Source of the DNA: Streptomyces venezuelae | GTDB taxonomy: Bacteria > Actinomycetota > Actinomycetes > Streptomycetales > Streptomycetaceae | NCBI RefSeq assembly: GCF_008642315.1 | Contig: NZ_CP029192.1 | Location: 1,302,001 to 1,366,000 of the forward strand | DNA length: 64,000 nt | Reading direction: 5' to 3' | Part shown: piece by piece, positions 34,221 to 54,860 of the stretch | Layout: each line of letters opens with the position of its first letter | Numbering within the stretch: position 1 is the stretch's first letter | Notes under the pieces: model-generated | What the model was told of the DNA's origin: nothing | The model's input: only the letters and a program-made list of their open reading frames with translations | Database searches by the model: none | Position numbers and translations under genes: made by a program

Positions 34221-34332
34221 GCGCGGAGGGTAGCGAGGGGCGTCGACGGTTGACAGAGGCGCGGCCCGACAAGAAAAGATACGTTCCCTTCCGCACCGCT
34301 CCGAAGTCATGTACCGCCGGTACGCTTTACGC

Positions 34333-38411: not shown

Positions 38412-39416
38412 TCAGAGCCCGGCCTTCGCGCCTCTGTCGTCCTGGGCGCCCAGGGCCCATTCGAGAACCGCCATGGCACCGCTCAGCTTCATGGACGCCT
38501 GCGTCCAGGCCACCGACCTGGGGCCGTCGAGAACCGCGCCGGAGACCTCGTCGCCACGGCGCGCGGGCAGGTCGTGCAGGAGCAGGGCGCCGGGGCGGCG
38601 CGTCATGAACTCCTCGTCGACGTGGAACGGCCGGAACCGTTCGCGCCACGCGGCATCGGACTCACCGGTGCCGGTGGTTCTGCGGCGGGACGTGTAGACG
38701 ACGTCGACGCCTGCGGGCAGGGAACGGGCCGAGTCGCGGCAGGTGAAGGTGGCCCCGACCGGCGCGGCACGCTTCCTGGCGGTCGTGAGGAGCCCGTCGG
38801 GCAGGCCGTGGCCGGGCGGGCAGGCGAAGGTGGCCTCGCAACCCGGAACACCGGACAGGGCGAGCGCGAGCGCCGTCGCGGTGCCGTTGCCCTCCCCCAC
38901 GTACAGCAGTCGCAGCCCGTCGAGGCTCCCCAGCGTCAGCCGCAGCGTGGCCAGGTCGCAGAGCCCCTGGGTGGGATGTTCCTCCGGCGTCATGGCGTTG
39001 ACGACGGGCAGGTGTCCGTGGCGGGAGAGGCGGCGCAGGTCGTCGAGCGACCCGGCGGGCCGGGCGACGAGCCCGTCCAGCATGCTGCCGAGCGACCGTC
39101 CCGTGTCCTCGACGGCCTCGTCCGTCGGCAGGTGGAGGTCGCCGGGGCCGTACGCGAGGGGGGCGGCGCCGAGACGGACGGCCGCCACGGTGAAGGCGGT
39201 CCGGGTGCGGGTGGACGGCAGGGCGAACAGGATGCCGAGCGCGGCACCGGACAAGGGGTCCGCGTGGGCGGTGCGGTCGCGACGCAACTCCAGGGTGCGT
39301 TCGACGAGTCGGGAGACGGTCTCCGCGGTCAGATCGGCGAGGGAGAACAGGCCGGTCTCGGGGGCGGGGGGCGGGGCGCCGCGCGAGGCGGTGGCGGTGG
39401 CGGTGAGGGGTGTCAT
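38412..39416 (-). CDS. Divergent ornithine-carbamoyltransferase-like enzyme
   Basis: Aspartate/ornithine carbamoyltransferase-family protein of 334 residues. The carbamoyl-phosphate loop is LPSTRTRTAFT and EEHPTQGLCDL is conserved. The OTC ornithine loop, normally HCLPAHRGEEV, reads LLHDLPARRGDEVS, so the catalytic Cys is replaced by Asp; the downstream SMKL motif region is also altered. This points to a different acceptor amine than ornithine. Convergent with the polyprenyl synthase gene (36 bp apart). Might tailor a secondary metabolite; not established. Confidence 0.82.
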   Translation of the reverse strand: MTPLTATATASRGAPPPAPETGLFSLADLTAETVSRLVERTLELRRDRTAHADPLSGAALGILFALPSTRTRTAFTVAAVRLGAAPLAYGPGDLHLPTDEAVEDTGRSLGSMLDGLVARPAGSLDDLRRLSRHGHLPVVNAMTPEEHPTQGLCDLATLRLTLGSLDGLRLLYVGEGNGTATALALALSGVPGCEATFACPPGHGLPDGLLTTARKRAAPVGATFTCRDSARSLPAGVDVVYTSRRRTTGTGESDAAWRERFRPFHVDEEFMTRRPGALLLHDLPARRGDEVSGAVLDGPRSVAWTQASMKLSGAMAVLEWALGAQDDRGAKAGL

Positions 39417-40113
39417 GGGTTGTCCTACGCAAGTCGTGGGGCGAGTTCGGGCCCGTCGGCGGTCGGCCTCGCGGCGATGGATCTGACCGCGTCGGACCTG
39501 TCCACGGTGGGCCCGACCGCGAGGGGGCCGACCGTGTGGGGCCTGACCGCAGGGCCGCGGCGGTTCGCGACAAGGGCGTGGGCGGTTCGGTCCTCGACCG
39601 AACCGCCGGGGTCGTCCCGCCCGCATCGCGGGCTCGCTTCACGCCGTCGTCCGGGACCCACAACCTCGACGGCAGCAGTGGAGCGCGCCCGGTCACGGAG
39701 TCGTTCCGCACCCGAGCGGGGGTGCCGTCGGGCACCCCCGTCCCCCGCCCTCGCGACGGTCGCTCCCCCGATCCTGCACGGACCACCCGTTCGTACACCC
39801 CCGTAGTACGTCCGGTCACCGGATCTCTTTTCCCCCATCGGTGTTTTCAGGTCCGCCACGGTTCCGCGGCCGTGGGTACACCTTGGCCCCGCGCGCGGGC
39901 GAGGGCGACCGTGAAAACCCTGGAGTCCGGGCCCGGGGGCCGGGGTGGGCGGCCGGGTTCGGCGGGACGGGCGGGGCGGATGTGGCGTAGGCACGCACGC
40001 CGGGCTTCTCCGCGGGAGTGGTGAGCCGGTGGTTCCGTCGTTCAACCACTCGGCCCTGTGGACGAACCCAGGGTTTTCCTCGGGGAGTTCCGCGTACTCT
40101 TTCGCCCGGCTCG
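39417..40113. other. 697-bp gene-free region with degenerate repeats and two hairpins
   Basis: No reading frame here has family similarity or convincing codon structure. At 39484-39560 the phrase GACCGCG/GGGCC recurs as a degenerate tandem repeat. A perfect inverted repeat with 11-bp arms GGCGGTTCGGT and a 5-nt loop lies at 39581-39607, and another with 10-bp arms CGGGGGTGCC and loop GTCG at 39717-39740. The region must contain the promoter of the carbamoyltransferase and the end of the SDR transcript. Confidence 0.5.
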
Positions 40114-41631: not shown

Positions 41632-41936
41632 GAGATTCCCTGCGCGTCGTGCAGTACTGCTTCAACAGCAAACGACATCTGCCGATCTCCGCCCCTTCCG
41701 CGCCGTACTTGACGAAATTCCGCCTCTTGACGTCCAAGGAGCGGCGCCGCCGAGGGGGTTCGGCGCCTATGACACCGGCAGTCTCACCGACCCCGGGCTC
41801 GCGGTGGCATGGACGTCGTCCACGGCAGACGCGCCCTGAACCACGTGCGAGGGGTCCTCGATTACCACGCAGGACGACTCCTCGAACAGACCGGCGTCCC
41901 TGATTCCGCCAACAATTCCCGGGTTGTCTAGACCCA
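41632..41936 (+). other. Gap before the cluster promoter, no confident gene
   Basis: This gap contains only a doubtful 40-codon frame at 41809-41931 (ATG to TAG; MDVVHGRRALNHVRGVL...) with no recognised family and overlapping the promoter region. Frames on both strands here look degraded, so it could be the remnant of a gene or simply leader DNA. The imperfect palindrome around TCTAGA at 41927-41932 (GGGTTG TCTAGA CCC) abuts the -35 box. Confidence 0.35.
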
Positions 41937-41965
41937 TTGACAGCCTTTGTGGCGCTCCCTAATGT
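41937..41965 (+). promoter_or_regulatory. Strong vegetative-type promoter of the 42-48.6 kb operon
   Basis: A perfect -35 box TTGACA (41937-41942) and a -10 box TAATGT (41960-41965) are separated by exactly 17 bp. The expected transcription start near 41972 leaves a leader of about 47 nt before the GTG of the radical SAM gene. A TCTAGA-centred imperfect palindrome overlapping the upstream edge could be an operator. Confidence 0.7.
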
Positions 41966-42018: not shown

Positions 42019-43224
42019 GTGAACAGCACACCCGGTTCCGGCGACATCAAAATGGCAGCTCCCCAGAATCGTGAAGGTCTGCCCCTCGTCAGTCTTGATC
42101 AGGCCCACTCACCGCAGAAGGTCCTGGCACACGGCGAATTGCTGCGGCGTTTCGTGGCGGGGCAGGAGATCAAACCCGTCCACATGCGGATCGGCATCAT
42201 GGGCGCCTGCAATATGCGATGCAATTTCTGCAACTTCCACTCGCCCAACGAGGAGCAGTTCTACGACCTGTTCTCGTTCAAGGACTCGATCGCCACGGAC
42301 AAGGCGGTCACGCTGCTCCGCGAGTTCGCCGCGAACGAGGGCCGTGCCGTGACGTTCTGCGGCAGCGGTGAGTGCACCATCCACCCCGGCTACGCGGACA
42401 TCTGCCACGCCGGCCACGCGGCGGGCCTGCGGATCGGGCTGATCACCAACGGATCGCGCCTCGGCCGCCCCAAGGTCGCCGACTGCGTCGCGCAGACGCA
42501 CACCTGGGTCCGCATCGGCCTGAACGCGGGCACGGAAGCCACCTTCGACGACATCACGCGCGACCGCGAGCAGACGTTCTCGAAGTTCATCGGCTCGGTC
42601 GGCAAGCTCCGCGAGAACGCCGTCGACCCGGACTTCCGCATCGGCTTCAACTACGTGATCACCCTGCAGAACTACCGGGAGATCATGGAGGCGGCCCATA
42701 TCGCCCATGAGTCCGGCGCGCATTACGTGCGCTTCGAACCCGAGTTCTACAGCGCTCTCGGACACGAGACCATCGAATCCGTGATGCCGGAGATCTCCGA
42801 ATCCCTCACCCGCGCCGCCGCGCTCTCCACGGACGCCTTCGAGGTGTCGGTCCCCAAACTGGACCGCGGCCCGATGGACCAGGTCGAAGAGGTCGAGGGC
42901 GACTTCGAGCACTGCCACTACAGCCGGTTCGTCACGGCCGTCGGCGCCGACGGAAATCTCTACCCCTGCCCCCAGGTGCACCTCAACAGCCGCTACCTGA
43001 TCGGCAACGTCCTCGAACAGGGATATGCGGACGTCCTGGACGGCGGGCCGCGCGCCGAGTGGGAGGCGTCCAACCCGCGCAGGACCGACCTGTGCAAGTC
43101 GTGCTTCTACCGCCCCCAGAACGAGCTCCTCGAGCTCCTCAAACGCGGTCAGATCAAACTCGACGAGGCCCTGGACGCGTACGCGCTGGAAGTGCCCAGC
43201 ACCCTGCACGGCGACTTCGTCTGA
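42019..43224 (+). CDS. Radical SAM enzyme with Twitch/SPASM-like C-terminus
   Basis: Protein of 401 residues. The SAM-cluster motif CxxxCxxC is in GACNMRCNFCNFH, and FCGSGECTIHP, LITNGSRLG and RIGLNAG are barrel strands of the fold. Four more cysteines, in FEHCHYSRF, LYPCPQVH and DLCKSCFY, suggest one auxiliary Fe-S cluster as in Twitch/SPASM proteins, which include aminosugar and peptide-modifying enzymes. The GTG start at 42019 has a GGGGGG ribosome site; the longer frame to 41947 overlaps the promoter. First gene of the operon, 7 bp before the fusion gene. The substrate is not identifiable; no precursor-peptide gene is seen. Confidence 0.88.
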   Translation: MNSTPGSGDIKMAAPQNREGLPLVSLDQAHSPQKVLAHGELLRRFVAGQEIKPVHMRIGIMGACNMRCNFCNFHSPNEEQFYDLFSFKDSIATDKAVTLLREFAANEGRAVTFCGSGECTIHPGYADICHAGHAAGLRIGLITNGSRLGRPKVADCVAQTHTWVRIGLNAGTEATFDDITRDREQTFSKFIGSVGKLRENAVDPDFRIGFNYVITLQNYREIMEAAHIAHESGAHYVRFEPEFYSALGHETIESVMPEISESLTRAAALSTDAFEVSVPKLDRGPMDQVEEVEGDFEHCHYSRFVTAVGADGNLYPCPQVHLNSRYLIGNVLEQGYADVLDGGPRAEWEASNPRRTDLCKSCFYRPQNELLELLKRGQIKLDEALDAYALEVPSTLHGDFV

Positions 43225-43231
43225 GCCGCAC

Positions 43232-45385
43232 ATGCAACTACGCCACCTACGCCGGCTCCTCGCCACCGAGCCGACCCTGCGGCACGCCAAGAACGCCAAG
43301 AACGCCGACAGTGCCGGCGGTGTCGGGGAGCACGCCGGCCGCGCCCGCCGGGTGCGCGCCGTCGTCGAGCGGCTGGCCCGTGTCGAACGGGCCCCGCTCG
43401 TCACCGTCGAAAGCACCGCCTCGGTACGCGAAGGCCTGCACCACGAGCGGCTGGTGTTCCAGTCCCCCGTACGAGGCTCTTTCGACGGGACGCTCCTCGC
43501 CCCGCTCGACCCGGCGCCCGGCCCCGCCGTCCTCGTGCTCGGCGGCAAGAACGCCCGCCTGGACCAGCTCACCGGAGACGTGCCGCCGGACCACCCCGAC
43601 CGCAACGTCGCCGAACAGCTGGCGCGGGCCGGTTTCGTCACGCTCTCCTTCGACCACGGCATCGGCGGCGGCCTGGACGCCGGACGCAGGGCGGGCCGGG
43701 ACGAAGGGACACTGCTGGCCCACGCGTTCGCGCTGACCGGCCGCTCCCTGCTCGGCGCCCTCACCGGCGACGCCCTGGGCGCCCTCGACGTCCTCGACGC
43801 CCACCCGCGCGTCGATCCGCTCCGCGTCGGCCTCTTCGGCCACAGCCTCGGCGCGGCGGTCGCCCTGCACACGGCGCTGCTCTCCGGCCGCCAGGACGTC
43901 CCGCTGTGCACGGCGAGTCATCTCGGCAGCTACCAGGCCCTGTTCGAGCGGCTGTTGACCGGCCACGAGGGCGCGGTGCTCCCCGGCATCCTGGAGTACG
44001 CCGACCTGCCCGACCTGTACGGCACCCTCGCCCCGGCCCCGCTCCAACTCCAGTACGGCACCGCGGACTCCTACCTGGACCCCGACGACGCGCGGGCCGC
44101 GGCCGACGCCGTCCGGGAGACGTACACGAACGTCGGCGCCGAAGTCGAGGTCCACGAGCTCGCCATGGGACACGGCACCCACGTCGGCCACGCGGCGGGC
44201 TTCTTCACGCGCACGCTCGCCACAACCCGACCGCCGACGCAGGCCGCGCCCCAGGTGCCCGCCCAGCGCATCCACTTCGAGGTCGACGAGCGGCGTACCG
44301 TACTCGACCGCGTCGACGCCGCGCTCTCCTCCGGCATCCTCACGCAGGGCCCGCAAGTGGCCCGCTTCGAGGAGCTGGCCCACCCCTGGACCGGCACGGA
44401 CACCGCCGCGGTGGCCTCCGGCTCGGCGGCGCTGGAGATCGCCCTGCGCATCATCGGCGTGGCGGGCCGCACGGTACTCGTACCGGTCAACACGTTCTTC
44501 GCGACGGCGGCCGCCGCCGTGCGCGCCGGGGCGGCCGTGCGCTTCGTCGACATCGAGCTCGACGGCCTCGGCATGGACCCTGACGCCCTGCACGCCGCCC
44601 TCGACCGGCACCCCGACACCGCCGCCGTGCTGCCCGTCCACATCGGCGGCATCGTCTCGCCCGCCCTCGACCCGGTGCTCGCCCACTGCCACCGGTACGG
44701 CATCCCCGTCGTGGAGGACGCGGCGCACGCCTTCGGGGCCACGCTCGACGGCCGCCCCGCGGGGAGCTTCGGGCGGTTCGGCGCGTTCTCGTTCTTCCCC
44801 ACGAAGGTCGCGGTGAGCGGCGAGGGCGGCCTGCTGTCGGCGGCGTCGGCGGACGACCTGGAGCAGGTGCGGCGCTGGCGCGACCACGGCAAGAGCGCCC
44901 AGGGCTCGACGCTGCACGACCGGCCCGGCGGCAACTGGCGCCTGAGCGAACTGCACGCCGCCGTCGGCACGGTGGACCTGGAGCGCTTCACCGGCACGCT
45001 GGCCGCGCGCCGCGTACTCGCCGCCCGCTACGACGCACTGCTCGCGGACGTCCCGGGCATCCGCCCGCACGCCGTGCCCGCGGCGGCGGGCAGCAACTAC
45101 TACAAGTACCTCGCCTATCTGGATCCCGACGGCCCGCTGGACCGGCCGCTCCTGAAGAAGCTCCTGCGGGAGCGGCACGGTGTGGCGCTGGCCGGTGAGG
45201 TCTACGACCACTTGCTGTGCGATCACCCGCAGTTCGCGCGCCAGCGTGAACTGGACGCCGCGGGAGGCCCGTTCGAGCGGGCCCGCTGGTTCGCACGGCA
45301 CCACGTGGCGCTGCCGCTGTACCCGTCCCTCACGGAGGCCGAGCAGATCCGGGTGGTCGCCGCACTCCGCAGCGAGCTGCCGTGA
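43232..45385 (+). CDS. Alpha/beta-hydrolase fused to DegT-type PLP aminotransferase
   Basis: Two-domain protein of 717 residues. Residues about 70-330 are an alpha/beta-hydrolase of dienelactone-hydrolase style: nucleophile FGHSLGAAV (Ser205), acid in YGTADSYLDP, base in MGHGTHVGH. Residues about 345-717 are a DegT/DnrJ/EryC1 aminotransferase: SGSAALEIALR, EDAAHAFGATL, and the PLP lysine in FFPTKVAVSGEGG (Lys525). The lysine makes it an aminotransferase rather than a ColD-type dehydratase. Start ATG 43232 lies 7 bp after the radical SAM stop, and its stop overlaps the next start by 4 nt. This pairing of hydrolase and aminotransferase in one chain is unusual. Confidence 0.88.
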   Translation: MQLRHLRRLLATEPTLRHAKNAKNADSAGGVGEHAGRARRVRAVVERLARVERAPLVTVESTASVREGLHHERLVFQSPVRGSFDGTLLAPLDPAPGPAVLVLGGKNARLDQLTGDVPPDHPDRNVAEQLARAGFVTLSFDHGIGGGLDAGRRAGRDEGTLLAHAFALTGRSLLGALTGDALGALDVLDAHPRVDPLRVGLFGHSLGAAVALHTALLSGRQDVPLCTASHLGSYQALFERLLTGHEGAVLPGILEYADLPDLYGTLAPAPLQLQYGTADSYLDPDDARAAADAVRETYTNVGAEVEVHELAMGHGTHVGHAAGFFTRTLATTRPPTQAAPQVPAQRIHFEVDERRTVLDRVDAALSSGILTQGPQVARFEELAHPWTGTDTAAVASGSAALEIALRIIGVAGRTVLVPVNTFFATAAAAVRAGAAVRFVDIELDGLGMDPDALHAALDRHPDTAAVLPVHIGGIVSPALDPVLAHCHRYGIPVVEDAAHAFGATLDGRPAGSFGRFGAFSFFPTKVAVSGEGGLLSAASADDLEQVRRWRDHGKSAQGSTLHDRPGGNWRLSELHAAVGTVDLERFTGTLAARRVLAARYDALLADVPGIRPHAVPAAAGSNYYKYLAYLDPDGPLDRPLLKKLLRERHGVALAGEVYDHLLCDHPQFARQRELDAAGGPFERARWFARHHVALPLYPSLTEAEQIRVVAALRSELP

Positions 45386-46608
45386 CCCCCGAACCCCCTG
45401 TCGCAGAGACGATCTCCGCCTTCCGCAGAGGGGAATGGCGCACCTCCCTTGACCGAGCACCCCTGCCCGGACCCGCCGGACGGGAACTCGCTCTGGTACC
45501 GGAGATCGTCGCCGACGCGGACCGGCGGTGGTGGGACAGCGGCCTGCCAGGCCTTCCCCTGCTGACCGGACGCCGTGAACTCCTGCTCACCGCACTGGAG
45601 TTGTTCGCCGGAGACACGCTCACCGTCGGAGGCGTCGGTGAGCAGAGCGGCGAGGCGTTCCGCGCGGCGCTGTGGGAGAGCGCGGGGCTGCCGGGCCCGT
45701 TGGTGGACCGGTGGTGCGCGATGCTGCGGGACGGCGTCCTGAAGAAGGACGACGTCCCCGAGCCGGACGGCGCGCTGGCCCTGGTCGCGCTGCCGGGCAA
45801 CACCTTCACCTGCCTGGCCGCGGTCTGCGACCAGGCCGAGCGCTCGGCCGGGGTGTGGCTGCGCCCGAGCCGCCGCGAACCGCTCTCCGCGGCCCGCCTC
45901 GTCGCCGCCCTGCTCGCGGCGGGCTGGCCCCGGGCCCGCCTCGGCTTCTATCCGGGTGAACAGCGCTCCCTGCACGGCCTGTTGCGGCTGACCGACCGCC
46001 ACGTCGTCTACGGCGGCGCGGGGCTCGCCGCCTCCGTCCGCTCCTCCCCCGCGCTCACGCTGCACGGCCCGGGCCGCGGCTGCGCGCTCGTGCCGCCCGA
46101 CATGCCGACGGACGACGCCGTGGCGTGGCTGCTGCCGCTGATCGCGGCGGACTCGGGGCGCTTCTGCAGCAACGTACGGACCGTCGTCTGCGAGAAGCCC
46201 GACGCCGCCGCGGCCCTGGCCACCAGCCTCGCCGCCGCCCTCGACGCGCTGTCCCCGGACGGGGCGTGGCCGCTGACGGCCTTCCGCGAGCCGGGCGCGG
46301 CGGAGCGCGTGACCCGCGGCGTCCGCGACCGTCTCCGTCCCGGCGACCGCGTCCTGACCCGCAGGCCGCCCGTCCTGCACGGCACGGCCGGCGACGTGTA
46401 CGCGCTGCCCCATCTCGTGCTGCTGGAGGGTCACTTGACGTCGCCCACACCGGGCGCGCAGGCCCCGGACGCCACGGATACCTCCGCGACTCATCCGTTG
46501 ATCGGCCACGAGGTCCCCTTCCCCTTCGCCGCCGTCCTGAGCGCCTCCCCCCGTGCCGCGGACGCCATCATCGCCGAATCCCTGTTCGTGTACCGCCCAG
46601 CGAAGTGA
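45382..46608 (+). CDS. ALDH-fold acyl reductase, LuxC-like
   Basis: Protein of 408 residues with an aldehyde-dehydrogenase fold. The cofactor region LVALPGNTFTCLAAVCDQAE followed by VWLRPSRREPLSAARLVAAL and YGGAGLAASV matches the PxNT...KPS...TGS pattern. The catalytic cysteine is in DSGRFCSNVRTVV (Cys262), close to LuxC/acyl-CoA reductases. LuxC reduces acyl-enzyme or acyl-CoA to an aldehyde with NADPH. The GTG start overlaps the fusion gene's stop, and a LuxE-like adenylating gene follows at 7 bp, giving a paired acid-to-aldehyde module. The N-terminal LuxC signature is weak, so the assignment rests on the core motifs. Confidence 0.75.
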   Translation: MTPEPPVAETISAFRRGEWRTSLDRAPLPGPAGRELALVPEIVADADRRWWDSGLPGLPLLTGRRELLLTALELFAGDTLTVGGVGEQSGEAFRAALWESAGLPGPLVDRWCAMLRDGVLKKDDVPEPDGALALVALPGNTFTCLAAVCDQAERSAGVWLRPSRREPLSAARLVAALLAAGWPRARLGFYPGEQRSLHGLLRLTDRHVVYGGAGLAASVRSSPALTLHGPGRGCALVPPDMPTDDAVAWLLPLIAADSGRFCSNVRTVVCEKPDAAAALATSLAAALDALSPDGAWPLTAFREPGAAERVTRGVRDRLRPGDRVLTRRPPVLHGTAGDVYALPHLVLLEGHLTSPTPGAQAPDATDTSATHPLIGHEVPFPFAAVLSASPRAADAIIAESLFVYRPAK

Positions 46609-46615
46609 GGCCCGC

Positions 46616-47734
46616 ATGACCACCGGCTTCGGCACCCTGCCCGACAGACTGCGCGAGCGCGTCCCGGAGCTCGGCATCGGCCTCGACGCGTGGACGCGCC
46701 GCATGATGCGCTGGCACTTCGACCCGGAGACCGGCAGCCCCTTCTGGGTGGCGCGGCGCGGGAAGCTCGGCTTCGACCCGGTCGAGGACATCGGCGGCTT
46801 CGCCGACCTGGATCGTTTCGGCCTCTTCGACAAGGCCGAGCTGCGCGCCGCGAACGTCCGCGACCTGCGCCCGCGCGGCTACCGCGACCGGCCCTTCCGG
46901 GTCTTCGAGACGGGCGGCTCCACGGGCCCGCCCTGCCGGATCGTCAATGTCACCCGCCTCGCGTACGACGTGGAGGTCTACCGCACCGTGCTGGAGGCGC
47001 GCGGCGTCGCGGGCGGCGACATCCTCGCGATGACGCCGAGCGGACCGCACGCGTACGGGCACTTCGTGGAGGGCCTCGCCGACAGCTGGTGCGGCGCCGT
47101 GCACGCGATCGACTTCGACCCGCGGTGGGTGAAGGCCGCGCTGCGCGCGGGCGGCGAGGCAGGCGCCTACACCGCGCACCTGATCGACCAGACCCTCGCG
47201 CTGCTCGCCACCGAACGCCCTTCGCTGCTCTTCACGACCTCCCGGCTGCTCGTCGAGCTGTCGATGCGGCTGCCCCGGCCCCTGCACACGTACGGCATCC
47301 GCGCGGTCTGCACCGGCGGCACCTCGTGCACCGCAGCCGAGGCCGAGTTCCTGCGCGAGGAGCACCTGGCGGGCGTGCAGTGGATCGACACGTACGGGAA
47401 CACGCTGGTCGGCCACGCCCTGCAGGCCGACCCCGTGCCGGGCACTCCCGCCGTGGCGGGCGGCACCGGGCACTCCTACCACCTGCCCCCGCCCTTCGCG
47501 GTCCTGAAGGTCGTCGACGACTCCGACCCGTGGCGCGAGGTCGAGGTCGGACAGCGGGGCCGGGTGCGCGCCACGACGCTCCTGGAGGACCTGTTCCTGC
47601 CGAACCTCCTGGAGCGGGACAGCGCGGTCAGAACCGGGCCGCACCCGTGGTTCCCCTGGGACGGGGTGGCCGCCGTGCGGCCCTTCGTGGAGTCCGGGGA
47701 CGCCGCCGAGGAGGCGGTGGAAGGCGTCTACTGA
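46616..47734 (+). CDS. ANL-type adenylating enzyme, LuxE/phenylacetate-CoA ligase-like
   Basis: Protein of 372 residues of the adenylate-forming superfamily, closest in pattern to phenylacetate-CoA ligase and LuxE acyl-protein synthetase. The phosphate loop is FETGGSTGPPCR; YGNTLVGHALQ corresponds to the A5 motif and the C-terminal GRVRATTLLEDLFLPNLLERD to A8-like sequence. The short length lacks most of the usual C-terminal lid, as in LuxE. Together with the preceding LuxC-like gene it would activate a carboxylate and hand it on for reduction. The ATG at 46616 follows GAGG; the longer frame is spurious. Confidence 0.8.
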   Translation: MTTGFGTLPDRLRERVPELGIGLDAWTRRMMRWHFDPETGSPFWVARRGKLGFDPVEDIGGFADLDRFGLFDKAELRAANVRDLRPRGYRDRPFRVFETGGSTGPPCRIVNVTRLAYDVEVYRTVLEARGVAGGDILAMTPSGPHAYGHFVEGLADSWCGAVHAIDFDPRWVKAALRAGGEAGAYTAHLIDQTLALLATERPSLLFTTSRLLVELSMRLPRPLHTYGIRAVCTGGTSCTAAEAEFLREEHLAGVQWIDTYGNTLVGHALQADPVPGTPAVAGGTGHSYHLPPPFAVLKVVDDSDPWREVEVGQRGRVRATTLLEDLFLPNLLERDSAVRTGPHPWFPWDGVAAVRPFVESGDAAEEAVEGVY

Positions 47735-47784
47735 CCGGTCCGCAGGCCGGACCGCCCGACCCGAAGGATCGAGGGACACGCATC

Positions 47785-48645
47785 GTGAACCTGTCGTCGA
47801 ACGGCGTACCGATACCCTTCACGCCGGAACTCTTCGGCCCGCTGCGCCCGAGCGCGGACCTGCTGGGGACGAGGGACGCCGGCGCACTGCGGGAGCGGCT
47901 GCACGCGGACGGCTATCTGTATCTGCCGGGGCTGCTCGACCGCGCGGAGGTGCTGCGCCTGCGCGGCCGGTACTTCTCCCTCTTCCCACCGGGTCTGCTC
48001 GCGCCGGGCAGCACGCCCGAGGACGGCGTGTTCTCCGGCCACGTGCCCGAGGACGTCCCGGAGTACGGAGTGGCGGGGCACCCGGCCTACGCGTTCGTGC
48101 GCTCGGAGCCCTTCGCCCAGTTCGTCGCGAACCCCGTCCTGTCCGAGCTCGCCGGTCAACTCCTCGACGCGAAGGCGGAGATGCTGCCGCGTCGCATCCT
48201 GCGTCACTTCCACCGCGGCACCCGGCGCGCCTCCCGCGCCCATGTCGACTTCGACTACATGGACGAGGGGTCGCCGCGCGTCGTCACCTTCTGGATCCCG
48301 GTCGGCGACTGCCCGCCGCCCACCGGAGCCCTGGTCTACCTGGAGGGCTCCCACCGGCTGCCCCCGGAGGAGTACGCCCCGCTGCGCGACACCACCGACC
48401 GGCCCGGCGACCGGCGGCAGATCTGCCACGACCTGGAGCTGACCGCCCGCACGCTCGGCCGCCGCTGGCTGTACGCGGACTTCGCGGCGGGCGACGTGAT
48501 GGTGCACCTTCCCCGCATCATCCACGCGTCCCTGGACACGACGACGGACGCGATGCGCCTCTCCGTGGACACCCGTTTCGTACGCTCCGACGACAGCCCG
48601 GACCCGCGCTGGCTCCGCCCGTGGTCGGCGGACGACGGGGCGTGA
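47785..48645 (+). CDS. Phytanoyl-CoA dioxygenase-like Fe(II)/2-oxoglutarate oxygenase
   Basis: Protein of 286 residues of the PhyH family. Iron ligands form HxD...H: HVDFDYMDE and, about 85 residues on, LPRIIHASLD; a following Arg in MRLSVDTRF would bind 2-oxoglutarate. DGYLYLPGLLD is the family start. PhyH-like enzymes hydroxylate, epoxidise or halogenate acyl chains and free small molecules. The GTG at 47785 follows CGAGGGA. Last gene of the plus-strand operon; its stop is 21 bp from the convergent Gfo/Idh gene. Substrate unknown, presumably the cluster product. Confidence 0.88.
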   Translation: MNLSSNGVPIPFTPELFGPLRPSADLLGTRDAGALRERLHADGYLYLPGLLDRAEVLRLRGRYFSLFPPGLLAPGSTPEDGVFSGHVPEDVPEYGVAGHPAYAFVRSEPFAQFVANPVLSELAGQLLDAKAEMLPRRILRHFHRGTRRASRAHVDFDYMDEGSPRVVTFWIPVGDCPPPTGALVYLEGSHRLPPEEYAPLRDTTDRPGDRRQICHDLELTARTLGRRWLYADFAAGDVMVHLPRIIHASLDTTTDAMRLSVDTRFVRSDDSPDPRWLRPWSADDGA

Positions 48646-48666
48646 TCCACCGCGCCCCGCATGTTC

Positions 48667-49617
48667 TCACCCGAACACCGGCACCGGGCGCCCGCCCGCC
48701 GCGTCCGACCGCTCCGCCGCCGCGATCACGTCGTCGACGAGGCGGCCCTCCGCCACCGGGCACACCGGCTCCCGGCCGGTCGCCACGGCCACGGCGAAGT
48801 CGGCGAGCAGCGGCTGGTGGGGGTTGGCGGGCGGCGGAAGCAGGAGCGGGGGTCCCGGGGGTGCGTCGATTCGGCCCGCGTCCAGGGGTGCGAGGGTCAG
48901 CGTGCGGCCGCCGCCCGCCAGCCGGAAGCGGTCCAGGGGAGGGCCGTTGCCCCACTCCACGAGGCAGTGCGCCCGTGTGCCCGAGGGCCAGCCCAGGGTG
49001 AGTTCGGCGCGTCGTTCCGCGCCCCGCGGGAAGCGGTCGCCGAGCCGCGCCGTCAGCTCGTGGGGCCGCCCGAACAGATGGAGCAGCAGGTCGATCCGGT
49101 GGCTTCCGGCGTCCGCGAGGACCCCGCCACCGGACAGGGCGGGGTCGGTGCGCCACCGCATCGGGTCGTCGGGGCCGGGCGCGAAGGCGCACCGGAAGTG
49201 CACCTCGACCAGGTCCGGCGTCCAGCCGTCGAGTTCCTCGCGCAGCCGTCGCACGGCGGGCGCGAGCCTGCGGTAGTAGGCGACCCCCGCGCACCGCCCC
49301 GCCGTGTCGAGCGTGTCCCCCGTGCCGAGGCCGCCTGCGAGCGGCTTCTCGATCAGGACGGGCAGGCCCGCTGCCAGGACGGCGCGGGCGAGCGGCACAT
49401 GACGTACGACGGGGGTGGCGATGTACACGGCGTCGACGCCGTCGAGGAGCACGTCGACGTCGGCGCCGGACCTGGCGATGCCGTGGTGCTCCGCGGTGCG
49501 CGCGGCGCGGTGTGGGTCGCGGCCCCAGAGGGCCGCGGGCTCCTCGCCGAGGGCGTACAGGGCGGGCAGGACGCGGCGGGTCACGATGTCGCCGTATCCG
49601 GCGATGCCCCACTTCAC
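48667..49617 (-). CDS. Gfo/Idh/MocA-family oxidoreductase
   Basis: NAD(P)-dependent dehydrogenase of about 316 residues. The Rossmann start is WGIAGYGDIVTRRVLPAL; the catalytic motif EKP is in PVLIEKPLAGG; the later GGGVLADAGSHRIDLLLHLF is the GxxxDxGxHxxD hallmark. Family members oxidise or reduce sugars, inositols and sugar-like ketones. Two starts are possible: GTG at 49617 (used here, spaced 7 nt from GGGGGA) and GTG at 49632. The gene follows the zinc alcohol dehydrogenase gene by about 20-35 bp on the same strand, and converges on the PhyH gene. Confidence 0.88.
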   Translation of the reverse strand: MKWGIAGYGDIVTRRVLPALYALGEEPAALWGRDPHRAARTAEHHGIARSGADVDVLLDGVDAVYIATPVVRHVPLARAVLAAGLPVLIEKPLAGGLGTGDTLDTAGRCAGVAYYRRLAPAVRRLREELDGWTPDLVEVHFRCAFAPGPDDPMRWRTDPALSGGGVLADAGSHRIDLLLHLFGRPHELTARLGDRFPRGAERRAELTLGWPSGTRAHCLVEWGNGPPLDRFRLAGGGRTLTLAPLDAGRIDAPPGPPLLLPPPANPHQPLLADFAVAVATGREPVCPVAEGRLVDDVIAAAERSDAAGGRPVPVFG

Positions 49618-49651
49618 GACGGTGTCCCCCACTTCACGGCGACTCCCCCGC

Positions 49652-50653
49652 TCAGGGCACGATCGCCACCTTCAGGGTCTCGGGCGGCGGGCCGTCGTAG
49701 GGGGCGTGTTCGGCGTCGGGGTAGAGGGCGCGGCTCGCGGAGAGCTGCTCCATGGCCTTGGGGAGTTCGTCGAGGGGGTACGTGTGCGTGTGGAGGTCGG
49801 GCAGGCGCAGGGCGTCGGTGCGGCGGTGGGCGAGACGTTCGGCGACGGCGAGGGCTTCGGCGCGCGCGGTGTCGAGGGGTTCCGCGGAGCTGTGCACCCG
49901 CAGGCCCTTGCGTTCCCAGGTGACCAGGTCGACGGTGACGTGCGTGTCGACGTGGTGCGTGCCGAGGAGGACGACGAGGCCGTTCTGTCGTACGAGGCCC
50001 ACGCAGGCGTTGAGTGTCGTGGGGGTGCCCACGGCGTCGACGGCGACGTCGAAGTCGGCGCCCACGGCAGCGAGTTGTTCGGCGCTGCCGTCCACGCGCC
50101 GCACCGCGTCCGCACCCGCCGCCGAGGACCGTTCGAGCCGCCAGTCGTCGAGGTCGACGGCGACGACCTCGGCCGCGCCGCGCGCCACGGCGACCCGCAG
50201 CGCCATCTGCCCGACGGGCCCCTGCCCGACGATCGCGACGCGGTCGCCGAGCCGGACGCCGCGCGTGGCGTGCACCGCCAGCGGGAGCAGTTGCAGGAGC
50301 GCACCCTGCTCGTAGGGCACGGCGTCGGGCAGGGCGCCCACGGAGACCTCGCGGGCCAGGGCGAACTCGGCGTATCCGGTGGTGAGCGGGGTGCGCACGA
50401 ACACGCGCTGCCCCGGCACCACACGCCGCACTCCGGCCCCCGTCGCCTCGACCACTCCGGCGATCTCGTGGCCGAAACAGCCCTGGGAGCAGTGCTCGCG
50501 CAGTCCGTGGTAGTGGAAGTAGGCGAGGTCGCTGCGGTTGCAGACCGTGCACGCCCGTACGCGGACCAGGACCTCGGAAGGTCCTGGCTCCGGCACGGCC
50601 ACGTCGGTGACCAGCCGGATGTCGCGCCTGCCGACGAGTTCGTACCTGCGCAT
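49652..50653 (-). CDS. Zinc-dependent MDR alcohol dehydrogenase
   Basis: Medium-chain dehydrogenase of 333 residues. The zinc ligands are expected in ACTVCNRSD and CFGHEIAGVV, and the cofactor loop is AIVGQGPVGQMALRVAV. The four-cysteine structural zinc lobe seems missing. A run of His (HVDTHVT, HTHTYPLD) is present. In Streptomyces aminocyclitol and aminosugar pathways similar enzymes oxidise a ring alcohol before transamination. Co-directional with the Gfo/Idh gene, and presumably part of the cluster with the plus-strand operon. The ATG at 50653 follows GGGGAGAAG. Confidence 0.88.
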   Translation of the reverse strand: MRRYELVGRRDIRLVTDVAVPEPGPSEVLVRVRACTVCNRSDLAYFHYHGLREHCSQGCFGHEIAGVVEATGAGVRRVVPGQRVFVRTPLTTGYAEFALAREVSVGALPDAVPYEQGALLQLLPLAVHATRGVRLGDRVAIVGQGPVGQMALRVAVARGAAEVVAVDLDDWRLERSSAAGADAVRRVDGSAEQLAAVGADFDVAVDAVGTPTTLNACVGLVRQNGLVVLLGTHHVDTHVTVDLVTWERKGLRVHSSAEPLDTARAEALAVAERLAHRRTDALRLPDLHTHTYPLDELPKAMEQLSASRALYPDAEHAPYDGPPPETLKVAIVP

Positions 50654-50775: not shown

Positions 50776-50831
50776 TTGACAGCCCGGTTTGGTACGAGCC
50801 AATATCCACTATCCGATTGGCCTGGACCAAT
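50776..50831 (+). promoter_or_regulatory. Promoter with DasR-like operator before GH3 gene
   Basis: A -35-like TTGACA (50776-50781) and CAATAT (50800-50805), spaced by 18 bp, precede a palindrome ATTGGCCTGGACCAAT at 50816-50831. That matches the DasR consensus ACTGGTCTAGACCAGT at 12 of 16 positions and is placed just past the predicted transcription start, where DasR repression is expected. Confidence 0.6.
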
Positions 50832-50918: not shown

Positions 50919-52463
50919 ATGGCACCGAGCAGTGACCCGACTCTGGAGCACCTCGCCCACTCCGTGCTGCAGCCCGGCTTCGAGGGCACCACGGCCCCCG
51001 CCTGGCTGCGCCGCAGGATCGCCGAGGGCCTGGGCTCCGTCGTGCTGTTCGCACGGAACATCGAGACGCCCGAGCAGGTCGCCCGGCTCACCACGGACCT
51101 GCGCGCGGAGAACCCGGACCTGATCGTCGCCATCGACGAGGAGGCGGGCGACGTGACGCGCCTGGAGGCGTGGACCGGCTCGTCCCGCCCCGGCAATCTC
51201 GCCCTCGGCGCCGTCGACGACATCGACCTGACCGAGCGGGTCGCCCACGACATCGGCCGCGATCTGCACGCCGCGGGGGTCTCCCTCAACTTCGCGCCGA
51301 GCGCCGACGTGAACTCGAACCCGCTCAACCCGGTGATCGGCGTACGCTCCTTCGGCTCGCGCACCGACGTCGTCTCCCGCCACACGGCCGCCTGGATCCG
51401 TGGCCTCCAGGAGGCCGGCGTCGCCGCCTGCGCCAAGCACTTCCCCGGCCACGGCGACACGGTCGTCGACTCTCACTACGGCCTGCCCCAGGTGAAGGGC
51501 ACCGCCGAGGAGATCGCGCTGACCGCGCTGCCGCCGTTCATCGCGGCGATGGAGGCGGGCGTGCGCGCCGTCATGACCGCGCACCTCCTCGCCCCCGCCT
51601 ACGACCCGGACCTGCCCGCGACCCTCAGCCACCGCATCCTGGTGGAACTGCTGCGCGGGGAGCTGAACTTCGACGGGCTGCTGGTCACCGACGGCATCGA
51701 GATGGGCGCGGTCACCGACCGCTACGGCATCGACGGCGCGACCGTCAAGGCGGTGGCCGGTGGCGTGGACGCCGTGTGCGTGGGCGGCGAGAGCGCCGAC
51801 GAGGCCACCTTCGACCTGCTCTCCACGGCCCTGGTGAAGGCGGTCATCGACGGCACGCTGCCCGAGGCCCGGCTCGTCGAAGCGAGCACGCGTGTACGGG
51901 AGTTCGCGGCCTGGTCCGGCGAGCGGTCCCGTGCCGTCGCCCGCGCGGCGGGCCCCACCGACATCGGCCTGGTCGCCGCCCGCCGTGCCGTGCGCGTGCA
52001 CCACCGCTCCGGCACGGCGAACGCCTCGCTGCCCGTCGTGGGCGTACCGCACGTCGTGGAGCTGTCCCCGACGATGAACCTGGCCATCGACGGCCACACT
52101 CCGTGGGGCGTCGCCGAACCGCTGCGGGACCTGCGCCCCGGCACCACGTCCGTACGCCTCACGGAGCCCGACCTCGCCCACGCCGGCGACCTCCTGGACC
52201 GCGAGGTCCTGACCCCGGCGACGGGCCGCGCCCTGGTGGTCGTGGTCCGCGACGCGGCCAGGCACCGCTGGATGACCGACACCCTCAACCGCATCCTGCG
52301 GTGCCGCCCCGATGCCCTGGTCGTCGAGATGGGTGTCCCGGGGGGCGACACGCTCGGCGCCACCCGTCTGATCACCCACGGCGCGACCCGTGTCTCGGGC
52401 ATCGCGGCGGCGGAACTGCTCGCGGGCGGCGGCCTCACCCCTTCAGCGGCCCCTCGCAGCTGA
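50919..52463 (+). CDS. GH3 beta-N-acetylhexosaminidase (NagZ-like)
   Basis: Glycosidase of 514 residues removing N-acetylglucosamine from chito-oligosaccharides or muropeptides. The GH3 signature KHFPGHGDTVVDSHYGLP (Lys173 onward) holds the NagZ-specific His/Asp dyad; LLVTDGIEMGAV carries the nucleophile Asp. No signal peptide is seen, so it acts in the cytosol. The ATG at 50919 follows GGAGG. An upstream DasR-like site fits N-acetylglucosamine regulation. Its end overlaps the convergent collagenase gene by 29 bp. Confidence 0.92.
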   Translation: MAPSSDPTLEHLAHSVLQPGFEGTTAPAWLRRRIAEGLGSVVLFARNIETPEQVARLTTDLRAENPDLIVAIDEEAGDVTRLEAWTGSSRPGNLALGAVDDIDLTERVAHDIGRDLHAAGVSLNFAPSADVNSNPLNPVIGVRSFGSRTDVVSRHTAAWIRGLQEAGVAACAKHFPGHGDTVVDSHYGLPQVKGTAEEIALTALPPFIAAMEAGVRAVMTAHLLAPAYDPDLPATLSHRILVELLRGELNFDGLLVTDGIEMGAVTDRYGIDGATVKAVAGGVDAVCVGGESADEATFDLLSTALVKAVIDGTLPEARLVEASTRVREFAAWSGERSRAVARAAGPTDIGLVAARRAVRVHHRSGTANASLPVVGVPHVVELSPTMNLAIDGHTPWGVAEPLRDLRPGTTSVRLTEPDLAHAGDLLDREVLTPATGRALVVVVRDAARHRWMTDTLNRILRCRPDALVVEMGVPGGDTLGATRLITHGATRVSGIAAAELLAGGGLTPSAAPRS

Positions 52464-54789
52464 AGTCCGCGCTGCCGGCGCGGCCGTCGGACCAGATGTC
52501 CACCTTGCCGAACGAGCAGTTCATGTCGGCCAGGTTGTTGTCGCCCGCCGTGGACCGTTCGAGGAGGAAGTAGTCGACGGTCTCCGACATGTCCTTGAAC
52601 ACGGCGTCGGGGTCACCGGATGCGCCGAGGTTCGCGGTGATGCGGCCCGTGCAGGTGTAGCGCGGACGCTCCGGCGCACCGTTCGACCGGCAGTCGGGCG
52701 TGATGCCCGTCGTCGCCGCGACGGAGGCACGGACCTGGTCGGCGGTGGTGTCGCGGAGCTCGGCGACCGGCACGAACTTCGTGTCGGGCACGAAGAGGTC
52801 GTCGACGTGCGCGATCTGCTTGTCGAGGAACGCGTCGTACTGGCTCTGCAGGCCGCTGTCCTTGCCGAGCCGGTCGCGCCAGGCGTCGAAGCGCGCCGGG
52901 TCGTCGGCCCGCAGGTATCCGTACATCTCCTTGAGCAGGGCGGGGCGTTCGGTCCACAGGAACTCGAAGAACGTCCCGGCGTAGTCGTAGAAGCGGAAGC
53001 CGTCGCCGTCGTAGGTGGCGTGCAGGAGCTGGTCGACGGTCATCCGCGGGCCGCCGTTCGCCGTGTCGTCGATGATGCCCCGGACCAGTGACTTGCGGAC
53101 CTTGATGCCGTCGTCGCGGGTGGCGCCGTCGAAGAACTCGGCGGTGCCCTCGTCCATGGCGGTGGTCCGGTCGCCCTGGTACCACGGGCCCTCGCCGAAG
53201 AATCCCGGCACGGCCCAGCGGCCGTTGAGGTAGTGCGTGTACTCGTGGCGGAAGAGCTCCTCCAGCGTCAGCGTGGAGTCCTGCGGGACGCGCCGCTGGT
53301 AGGTGTAGAAGGTCGCGCCCCGCTCGATGTAGACGCCGCCGTTGTTCGTGTCCATGCCGGTGAGCAGCGGGTGGTAGTTCTCGTAGTCGGCGCGCGAGGC
53401 GTAGAGGACCGTCGTCAGCGTGGTGTTGGGGTCGCCCGCCAGCGGCTCCTGGGTGCCGACGACCCGGTGGAACTGCGCCTTGACCTGCTTGCTCGCGTAA
53501 TAGAGCTGGTCGACGGTGCCCCGGTCGAGCGCCGTGCGGACCTTCATGCCGCCCTTGTCGTACGTGTAGGTCTGCGGGAAGAGCCGGCGCTCGATGTCGG
53601 CCTTGCACAGCTTGTACGGCGCGCAGGCGCCGAACTCGTTCAGCCAGGTGGCGACCTTCGCCCAAGGGGCGCTGCCCTCACCGAAGTTGCGGACGGTGAC
53701 GTCCACGAGCCCGCCGAGCCCGGAGACGATCTCGCTCTTGAGCCCGTCGATCTGCCCGAACCTGCCGTACTCGCTCAGCGCGTCGCGCACGACCCAGGCG
53801 TTGGCGGTGCCCTTGAGGTGGGTGTACGCGCCGAAGGCCTTGAAGGCGGCGCGGTAGGAGGGGTCGGCCTTCACCGCGGCGTGGAAGGCGGCGTCCTGGT
53901 TGCCGGGGTACACGCCGAGGTAGCTCAGGGAGAGCGCGGCGAGCGCGGAGCCGGCCCACGCGGTGTCCTTCGCGGTGCCGGGGTGCTTGGCGTCCATGGC
54001 GGCCAGCACCCGCTTGATCAAGGGAAGTTGGTGCTGCCGAAGGCCCGGCGCGCTCGCCGCGTAGAGCGCCTCGCGCAGCGACTCGGCGTTGGTGCGGGTC
54101 ACGTCGAAGGTGCGCGACGCGGAGCCGAAGGCGTCGACGGCACGCCTCATGGCATCCACGGTCGGCCCGTCGGTGACGTCGATCTCGTCGTGCGAGAAGT
54201 CCTGGTAGGCGACGGCGTGGAGATACGTGAACATCTCCAGGAGGTTGCTGCCGTTCTTGCCGTCGTGGGCGGCCGCGATCCCGGCGATGCGGCGGGAGAC
54301 GGCTTGGACGTGGGCGTCCGACATGACGGGGGCGAGCCGCGCGTCCCACGTCCAGACGAGGGTGCGGAGGCAGCCGTCCGCGGTGACGACGGGATCGGCG
54401 AGGAAGTCGGCGAACCGGTCGGGCGAGAGTCCGGTGACGCCGTCGAGGGTGCAGGGCACGGCCTTCGCGGAGCCCGCTTTCGGCTCCGCTCCGATCGTCG
54501 ACTTCACTTTCGGCTTGGGCGTGCGGGCGCCGGGCACCCGGCCGTCCTTGAGCCCGCCGGGTGCCGGGATCTCGCGGGCGCCCGGCTTCGGGGCTCTCGC
54601 CAGGCGTTCGACCACGTCCTGGGGGTTCGGGGCGGCGGGCGCCGCGGCGGTGCGGGGCTTCCCGGCGGAGGGGGCGGGCTCGGCCGCGTGTCCGAGCTGG
54701 ACGGCCGAGGCGCAGAGGGTCGCCGCTATCGCGCCGGCAAGCACGGATCTGCGCAGGGTGCGTAGACGTATCTGGGACTTCTGGGACAC
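52435..54789 (-). CDS. Secreted M9 family collagenase
   Basis: Zinc metalloprotease of 784 residues. A Sec signal (RTLRRSVLAGAIAATLCASAVQ) leads to an Ala/Pro-rich propeptide-like stretch (about residues 35-100). Then come the M9 N-terminal activator domain and the peptidase domain with HEYTH (515-519) and the third zinc ligand in AMDEGTAEFF. C-terminal accessory domain is short. The GTG start at 54789 has an ideal AGGAG site; longer frames to 54840 lack one. Its 3' end overlaps the GH3 gene by 29 bp. Lies in front of the hydroxyproline genes at 57-63 kb. Secreted collagenases of this family degrade native collagen and gelatin. Confidence 0.95.
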   Translation of the reverse strand: MSQKSQIRLRTLRRSVLAGAIAATLCASAVQLGHAAEPAPSAGKPRTAAAPAAPNPQDVVERLARAPKPGAREIPAPGGLKDGRVPGARTPKPKVKSTIGAEPKAGSAKAVPCTLDGVTGLSPDRFADFLADPVVTADGCLRTLVWTWDARLAPVMSDAHVQAVSRRIAGIAAAHDGKNGSNLLEMFTYLHAVAYQDFSHDEIDVTDGPTVDAMRRAVDAFGSASRTFDVTRTNAESLREALYAASAPGLRQHQLPLIKRVLAAMDAKHPGTAKDTAWAGSALAALSLSYLGVYPGNQDAAFHAAVKADPSYRAAFKAFGAYTHLKGTANAWVVRDALSEYGRFGQIDGLKSEIVSGLGGLVDVTVRNFGEGSAPWAKVATWLNEFGACAPYKLCKADIERRLFPQTYTYDKGGMKVRTALDRGTVDQLYYASKQVKAQFHRVVGTQEPLAGDPNTTLTTVLYASRADYENYHPLLTGMDTNNGGVYIERGATFYTYQRRVPQDSTLTLEELFRHEYTHYLNGRWAVPGFFGEGPWYQGDRTTAMDEGTAEFFDGATRDDGIKVRKSLVRGIIDDTANGGPRMTVDQLLHATYDGDGFRFYDYAGTFFEFLWTERPALLKEMYGYLRADDPARFDAWRDRLGKDSGLQSQYDAFLDKQIAHVDDLFVPDTKFVPVAELRDTTADQVRASVAATTGITPDCRSNGAPERPRYTCTGRITANLGASGDPDAVFKDMSETVDYFLLERSTAGDNNLADMNCSFGKVDIWSDGRAGSADFSCEGPLKG

Positions 54790-54860
54790 CGATGGCTCCT
54801 GTGTGGGAGGTGGGGGCATGAGGTGCTGCCACTGCGTCATGTGATGCGTAACGTAGTAAT

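Follow-up and report, generated by a model that had tools for sequence, protein, structure and literature searches.

Gene content of the cassette

We looked at a group of seven genes in a 64,000-nucleotide stretch of Streptomyces venezuelae DNA (contig NZ_CP029192.1, positions 1,302,001 to 1,366,000), which is called the window hereafter and whose own numbering is used for all positions. The genes encode a radical S-adenosylmethionine (SAM) enzyme and six other enzymes, and are referred to as the cassette. They are as follows.

42019-43224, plus strand: radical SAM gene with a SPASM/Twitch-type domain (Pfam PF04055, PF13186)
43232-45385, plus strand: hydrolase-aminotransferase fusion of 717 residues (from the open reading frame listing)
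43232-44236, plus strand: N-terminal half of the fusion, an alpha/beta-hydrolase resembling acetyl xylan esterases and dienelactone hydrolases (weak AXE1 and esterase matches)
44237-45385, plus strand: C-terminal half of the fusion, a DegT-family sugar-type aminotransferase (PF01041, E 2e-78)
45382-46608, plus strand: LuxC-like reductase of the aldehyde dehydrogenase superfamily, paired with the LuxE-like gene (profile match)
46616-47734, plus strand: EhpF-like acid-adenylating enzyme, called LuxE-like here (phmmer match to EhpF)
47785-48645, plus strand: PhyH-family Fe(II)/2-oxoglutarate oxygenase (PF05721, E 5e-16)
48667-49632, minus strand: Gfo/Idh/MocA oxidoreductase (PF01408, PF22725, PF02894)
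49652-50653, minus strand: MDR-family dehydrogenase (PF08240, PF00107); one strain whose cassette has no MDR gene carries an orthologue at another locus

All seven open reading frames are intact and span 42019-50653, at the positions given by the initial annotation. Its description of the arrangement was confirmed as well: the five plus-strand genes follow a promoter and are separated by 7, -4, 7 and 50 bp, and the convergent PhyH and Gfo/Idh genes lie 21 bp apart. Pfam bears out the assigned families for five genes (radical SAM with SPASM, DegT, PhyH, Gfo/Idh and MDR). The LuxC-like protein alone had no Pfam or NCBIfam match, and a profile built from 20 of its relatives reached aldehyde dehydrogenases in the PDB. 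For the LuxE-like protein, the Pfam AMP-binding match was weak (22.9 bits against a cut-off of 29.9), and phmmer aligned its residues 26-372 with residues 23-366 of EhpF (3l2k/3hgu) at E 9e-41, about 143 bits. The N-terminal half of the fusion, taken alone, gave a weak match to alpha/beta-hydrolases and acetyl xylan esterases. The view that the cluster holds no standard core synthase was also supported.

Conservation, rarity and decay of the cassette

The fusion protein was scanned against one genome per species from 84,980 species, a search that detects close relatives only, and 21 loci were found, 20 in Streptomyces and one in Dactylosporangium. In 20/20 loci with upstream sequence, the fusion is immediately preceded by the radical SAM gene on the same strand; locus L018, a contig fragment that has none, was excluded from this count. 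The co-occurrence of these two genes across actinobacterial genomes, which the initial annotation had suggested looking for, is thus conserved. We then compared a set of 29 loci, made of 28 loci plus the window, after removal of duplicate loci of one genome. The order radical SAM-fusion-LuxC-LuxE-PhyH is preserved in 26 of them, over several families. The three exceptions are the Dactylosporangium locus L019, where LuxC and LuxE are relocated, L048, where PhyH precedes LuxC, and L043, where a LuxC fragment lies by PhyH while LuxE and another LuxC piece are on a separate contig. Because gene order is conserved to this extent, the cassette is more than a chance neighbourhood, and the proposal that the seven genes belong to one cluster is well supported. 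We consider it almost certain that they form one pathway unit.

The cassette is rare. Radical SAM orthologues (E <= 1e-100) were found in 9/295 Streptomyces genomes, two of the nine being decayed, and elsewhere in 4/394 genomes of the class and in 4/249 genomes of one further order, one of which overlaps the class set. The fusion gene is present in 11 of the 13 radical SAM-positive genomes checked and, beyond these, in the genome of the window and in loci L051-L053. A search of a plasmid collection returned one match, unrelated and at 25%. Database proteins related to parts of the cassette include P0320, in which the same hydrolase is fused to PhyH, P0353, in which it is fused to LuxC, and the Bradyrhizobium protein P0226, a radical SAM relative.

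The two decayed loci, L045 (genome G634) and L046 (genome G458), have jointly lost fusion, LuxC, LuxE and PhyH from the locus, L045 retaining Gfo and an MDR fragment. Orthologues of LuxE and MDR were not found genome-wide in G634 or G458, and G458 has a 37% LuxE relative elsewhere in its genome. One CX3CX2C cysteine is lost in one relic radical SAM gene and all three in the other. These relics show a cassette that is being lost in some Streptomyces. Since the loss of the partners goes with a broken CX3CX2C motif in both, they suggest that the radical SAM gene is retained only alongside its partners, two related cases being few. The relic radical SAM genes (L045:10813-12096 and L046:9345-10586) adjoin dasR and dasA.

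Catalytic residues and relation to known enzymes

The active-site residues are conserved. In the radical SAM protein, the CX3CX2C cysteines C64, C68 and C71 are invariant in 50/50 sequences, as are the auxiliary cysteines C299, C317, C359 and C362. The seven-cysteine SPASM motif corresponds to two auxiliary clusters; beyond the barrel only those four cysteines were found here, which fits an expected single auxiliary cluster. We therefore term the protein Twitch-like, although its Pfam SPASM match passes the cut-off. The nearest folds to its structural model are BlsE, SkfB and DesII, with SuiB and PqqE also matching, and a profile search of the PDB gave SkfB, one further weak match and nothing else. 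Compared with BlsE, DesII and BtrN, radical SAM enzymes acting on sugars or cyclitols, identity is 13-15%, and peptide maturases score about as well; none of the genes that accompany these enzymes in their own pathways was found here.

In the fusion, the hydrolase residues Ser205, Asp279 and His314 are invariant in 35/35 sequences; within the separate 29-locus set Ser205 is absent only in L021, a draft with fragmented genes. The DegT half has its pyridoxal phosphate-binding Lys525 and Asp496 invariant in 35/35 fusion sequences, and the fusion model matches ArnB, WbpE and perosamine synthase. Foldseek returned solely aminotransferases among the 50 matches listed for this model, the hydrolase half not having been folded separately. 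With the DegT, ArnB, WbpE and perosamine synthase enzymes the fusion shares the fold and the catalytic Lys and Asp; it differs in that the aminotransferase is the C-terminal half of a 717-residue protein with an alpha/beta-hydrolase, and its scores are far under those that NCBIfam requires for these enzymes. Separate DegT proteins 42-45% identical to this half occur in L054, L055 and L056 (about 8.6-11.2 kb; two Catenulispora-family genomes and one Protofrankia), where they adjoin a GalE-like epimerase and the hydrolase half is absent. Among the remaining enzymes, Cys262 of the LuxC-like protein is present in 28/29 loci, the last row being a gap; H153, D155, H215, H241 and H247 of PhyH are invariant in 29 rows, and E95-K96, D174 and H178 of Gfo/Idh in 23 rows.

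In a phenazine pathway of Pantoea, EhpF is the enzyme that activates the acid, and it probably forms a carboxylate-reductase pair with EhpG. To EhpF the LuxE-like protein is related over nearly its full length, and this match suggests that the LuxE-like and LuxC-like proteins are such a pair. Two-component carboxylate reductases are known from grixazone (GriC/GriD) and from griseoluteic acid phenazines (EhpF/EhpG). As in these systems, an adjacent partner of the LuxC/aldehyde dehydrogenase superfamily with a conserved Cys is present here; unlike in them, the seven genes include no phenazine or aminohydroxybenzoate genes. EhpF alone was aligned, and the likeness to GriC/GriD and EhpG is one of roles. 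The roles of GriC and GriD as a carboxylate-reductase pair are as described in one report (PMC10179220). A two-component carboxylate-reductase step in the cassette is, in our view, very probable.

Taken together, the families permit a scheme in which we infer all substrates, the order of reactions and the product. The LuxE-like enzyme would use ATP to convert a carboxylic acid to an acyl-adenylate, and the LuxC-like enzyme would take the acyl group onto Cys262 and reduce it to an aldehyde, as for GriC/GriD, EhpF/EhpG being thought to act alike. Gfo/Idh and MDR could turn hydroxyl into carbonyl groups or the reverse, a carbonyl could be transaminated by the DegT half of the fusion, and an ester or amide group could be cleaved off by the hydrolase half. 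One radical change to a sugar-like or polyol-like intermediate would fall to the radical SAM enzyme, whose model resembles BlsE and DesII, and PhyH would hydroxylate. Of the similar scheme in the initial annotation, the adenylation and reduction of a carboxylate gained support from the EhpF match, while the order of reactions did not. An amino-sugar-like or aminocyclitol-like product may be suggested, rather tentatively.

A probable DasR-type operator at the promoter

The region upstream of the radical SAM gene contains a predicted operator next to the promoter, and a second such site lies beyond the cassette, ahead of a neighbouring gene. These features, which include candidate DasR-responsive elements (dre), are the following.

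41924-41935, plus strand: predicted dre-like site TTGTCTAGACCC, with two mismatches to the 12-bp dre consensus core
41937-41965, plus strand: predicted promoter TTGACA-17-TAATGT, kept in 21/22 Streptomyces loci
50818-50829, plus strand: conserved dre-like site TGGCCTGGACCA between MDR and NagZ
50919-52463, plus strand: GH3 beta-N-acetylhexosaminidase (NagZ paralogue; PF00933), a neighbour outside the cassette

In those 21 loci the promoter consists of a TTGAC(A/G) -35 box and a TAnnGT -10 box spaced by 17-18 bp. The core palindrome GTCTAGAC (41926-41933) abuts the -35 box and occurs once in the window in its exact form. The sequence of 21 Streptomyces loci, 423,709 bases in all, contains 13 exact copies, 13/13 of them at the radical SAM promoter. 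TTGTCTAGACC or a near form is found just ahead of this promoter in most of the 22 Streptomyces loci. The consensus for DasR is given as A(G/C)TGGTCTAGACCA(G/C)T, and a ptsH site of S. coelicolor that was positive in an electrophoretic mobility shift assay reads agttgtctagaccagt, both according to one source (PMC4398421). It is TTGTCTAGACC that the cassette site has in common with this ptsH site as given there, whereas the outer dre positions are mostly unmatched in the cassette. The cassette, a biosynthetic one, also differs from the sugar uptake and chitinase genes of the DasR regulon.

We looked for sites with at most two mismatches to TGGTCTAGACCA within 400 bp of the radical SAM gene. They were present in 17/32 loci overall: 15/22 in Streptomyces, seven loci having no such site there, 1/8 in other loci (the Catenulispora locus L047, with one mismatch) and 1/2 in the relics. 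Kinship reduces the independent cases to about four lineages by our own grouping. The search recovered sites at known types of target. Three one-mismatch sites of the window's genome are less than 8 kb from its dasR, and 15/16 cassette-free NagZ loci have a dre-like site upstream of NagZ. Of the four loose sites of the window, two (23074 and 23090) are just upstream of a GH18 chitinase gene with CBM5/12 (23184-24713), which is probably another target of DasR within the window. The cassette of S. klenkii and that of S. netropsis lie directly after dasR, with dasA beyond; the DasR proteins of these two species are 98% and 94% identical to that of L045, which matches the DasR structure 4zs8 at E 2e-142. 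The window's genome also encodes DasR (G000:C1:3094350-3095159, 88% identical to the L045 protein), remote from the cassette (3.09 Mb versus 1.34 Mb). Weighing against DasR control, the loose motif occurs 212 times genome-wide compared with 305 for a reversed control. On balance, control of the five-gene operon by DasR appears fairly likely. In Streptomyces, DasR would then probably repress the operon, and signals derived from N-acetylglucosamine (GlcNAc) would lift the repression.

Fuller versions in relatives

Related loci contain further genes. A glycosyltransferase (Glyco_transf_7C/GT2) is located after or near PhyH in L010, L011, L017, L019 and L047, and a major facilitator superfamily (MFS) gene adjoins MDR in L010 and in S. 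netropsis (L107). In Streptomyces sp. WAC 01529 the cassette (L002, at 7.36 Mb) has neither Gfo nor MDR, and MFS-MDR-Gfo and a glycosyltransferase lie together at a second locus, at 1.01 Mb in the 8.27-Mb record that also carries the cassette. A full set was seen in L051-L053, three genomes of another family, which have the arrangement MFS-PhyH-LuxE-LuxC-fusion-radical SAM and a divergent arm, glycosyltransferase-DMFase-like-MDR-Gfo-DUF1349. Among the relatives, the DMFase-like protein is confined to that one family and Dactylosporangium. At E 1e-10 there was no match between the MFS proteins of L051-L053 and those of L010/WAC 01529, so the transporters are, by their sequences, of different types.

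Of 17 genomes examined for the glycosyltransferase, 8 contain it, and no copy was found in the genome of the window; for this reason the seven-gene cassette of the window looks like a reduced form. The statement in the initial annotation that no sugar gene is present thus holds for this reduced version but not for the relatives, where a glycosyltransferase, MFS and DMFase-like genes are added. In the fuller versions the glycosyltransferase would attach a sugar and the MFS transporter would export the product.

Biosynthetic cluster or another function

The reading that we favour as probable is a dedicated actinobacterial cluster for the biosynthesis of a small molecule, present in the window in a reduced seven-gene form and under DasR-type control in Streptomyces. 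Another explanation, which we think unlikely, is a catabolic operon, induced through DasR, for a compound derived from chitin or GlcNAc or for another sugar acid. The dre-like operator at the promoter, the adjoining NagZ, the position of the S. klenkii and S. netropsis cassettes next to dasR and dasA, the many oxidoreductases and the lack of a transporter in the window's cassette would all agree with it. However, Pfam assigns none of the seven genes to a kinase, aldolase or lyase family, the distribution is rare (9/295 Streptomyces), and the full set in one family has glycosyltransferase, DMFase-like and MFS genes. It also speaks against this explanation that catabolic pathways, to our knowledge, do not usually include a radical SAM step, a glycosyltransferase or the reductive activation of a carboxylate.

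A pathway for a ribosomally synthesized and post-translationally modified peptide (RiPP), in which the SPASM-type radical SAM enzyme acts on a short peptide encoded by an unnoticed gene and the remaining enzymes carry out the tailoring, is improbable. It is prompted by the SPASM domain and by the fold matches to SkfB, SuiB and PqqE, but there are only four auxiliary cysteines. Moreover, the gaps between radical SAM and fusion genes in 11 other Streptomyces (up to ~690 bp) contained no conserved small frame by eye, the rest of the loci not being searched; most of these gaps have a similar ribosome-binding site at their end, and all of them have ATGCAG there. EhpF-like, Gfo/Idh, MDR and DegT enzymes are, as far as we know, not usual RiPP partners, a further point against it.

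A viperin-type antiviral system was rejected as very improbable. Prokaryotic viperin is the best NCBIfam match of the radical SAM protein (54.6 bits) and PADLOC reports pVip (66.8 bits), but the former is far under the cut-off of 180 and the match is limited to the barrel that radical SAM proteins have in common (residues 60-225); in addition, the four auxiliary cysteines are invariant and the other six proteins had no PADLOC match at E 0.001. That unrelated enzyme genes became neighbours by chance, with no common pathway, is hardly credible either: Gfo/Idh and MDR are elsewhere in one strain and LuxC and LuxE are apart in Dactylosporangium, but the order kept in 26/29 loci of several families already contradicts it, the cassette genes decay jointly, and the relocated genes remain in the genome side by side.

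We thus return to a biosynthetic cluster. More speculatively, the cassette could represent a new family of natural products that respond to chitin under the control of DasR, with an amino-sugar-like or aminocyclitol-like core made from a carboxylic acid, glycosylated and exported in some lineages and reduced and unglycosylated in that of the window. As a part of this speculative proposal, a new reaction of the radical SAM enzyme, together with EhpF/LuxC-type reduction and the fused hydrolase-aminotransferase, might build the core. No description of the gene set was found in the open-licence literature, which leaves most subscription papers and all preprints outside. As far as this literature shows, the cassette is undescribed, and it is real, conserved and rare. 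The DasR link, the kinship with EhpF and the fuller versions are new relative to the initial annotation. The conserved pathway unites a radical SAM enzyme, a fused hydrolase-aminotransferase and EhpF-type acid activation, and has no usual core enzyme, so genome mining based on known classes may miss it. The likely DasR operator would offer a way to switch it on, with GlcNAc or chitin or in a dasR mutant, and strains with the full set, S. netropsis and WAC 01529, are better hosts in which to search for the product.

Neighbouring genes

The neighbours were compared around the 21 fusion loci, with flanks that reach 10 kb at most and less than that in L001, L012 and L018. NagZ was rejected as a cassette member: at E <= 1e-165 it is present in 22/150 Streptomyces, only five of them radical SAM-positive, and it has its own dre-like site in the cassette-free loci. 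Because 15/16 of those loci have such a site, the one at 50818-50829 probably serves NagZ. Agreement between distance matrices was not used as evidence of co-evolution, since over the same 18 loci NagZ (0.86-0.93) agrees as well as the cassette genes (0.83-0.94). The das region of the window's genome (G000:C1:3089241-3090743) has another NagZ/DasD-like paralogue, which shares 54% identity with the NagZ beside the cassette. Downstream of NagZ lies a gene for a peptidase M9 (collagenase; 52435-54840), in the same position in L002, L003, L012, L021 and L049.

The initial annotation had left open whether a LAL regulator, a polyprenyl synthase and a carbamoyltransferase belong to the cluster. Within the fetched flanks, only L002 and L049 have the LAL regulator, and the other two genes are beside the cassette in 0/21 fusion loci. 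As they are not conserved beside the fusion loci, all three probably lie outside the cluster. The LAL regulator is accompanied upstream of the cassette (33144-37146) by a DapB/DAP_DH-like gene; both are kept in L002 and L049, and the DapB-like gene without the regulator in L003. The carbamoyltransferase (38412-39626) has a 63% relative at L106:836-1876, ~7 kb from the MFS-MDR-Gfo-glycosyltransferase locus of WAC 01529. This relative adjoins frames that, by eye, resemble an ornithine cyclodeaminase and a methyltransferase, and the carbamoyltransferase with these L106 neighbours possibly constitutes a separate small cluster.

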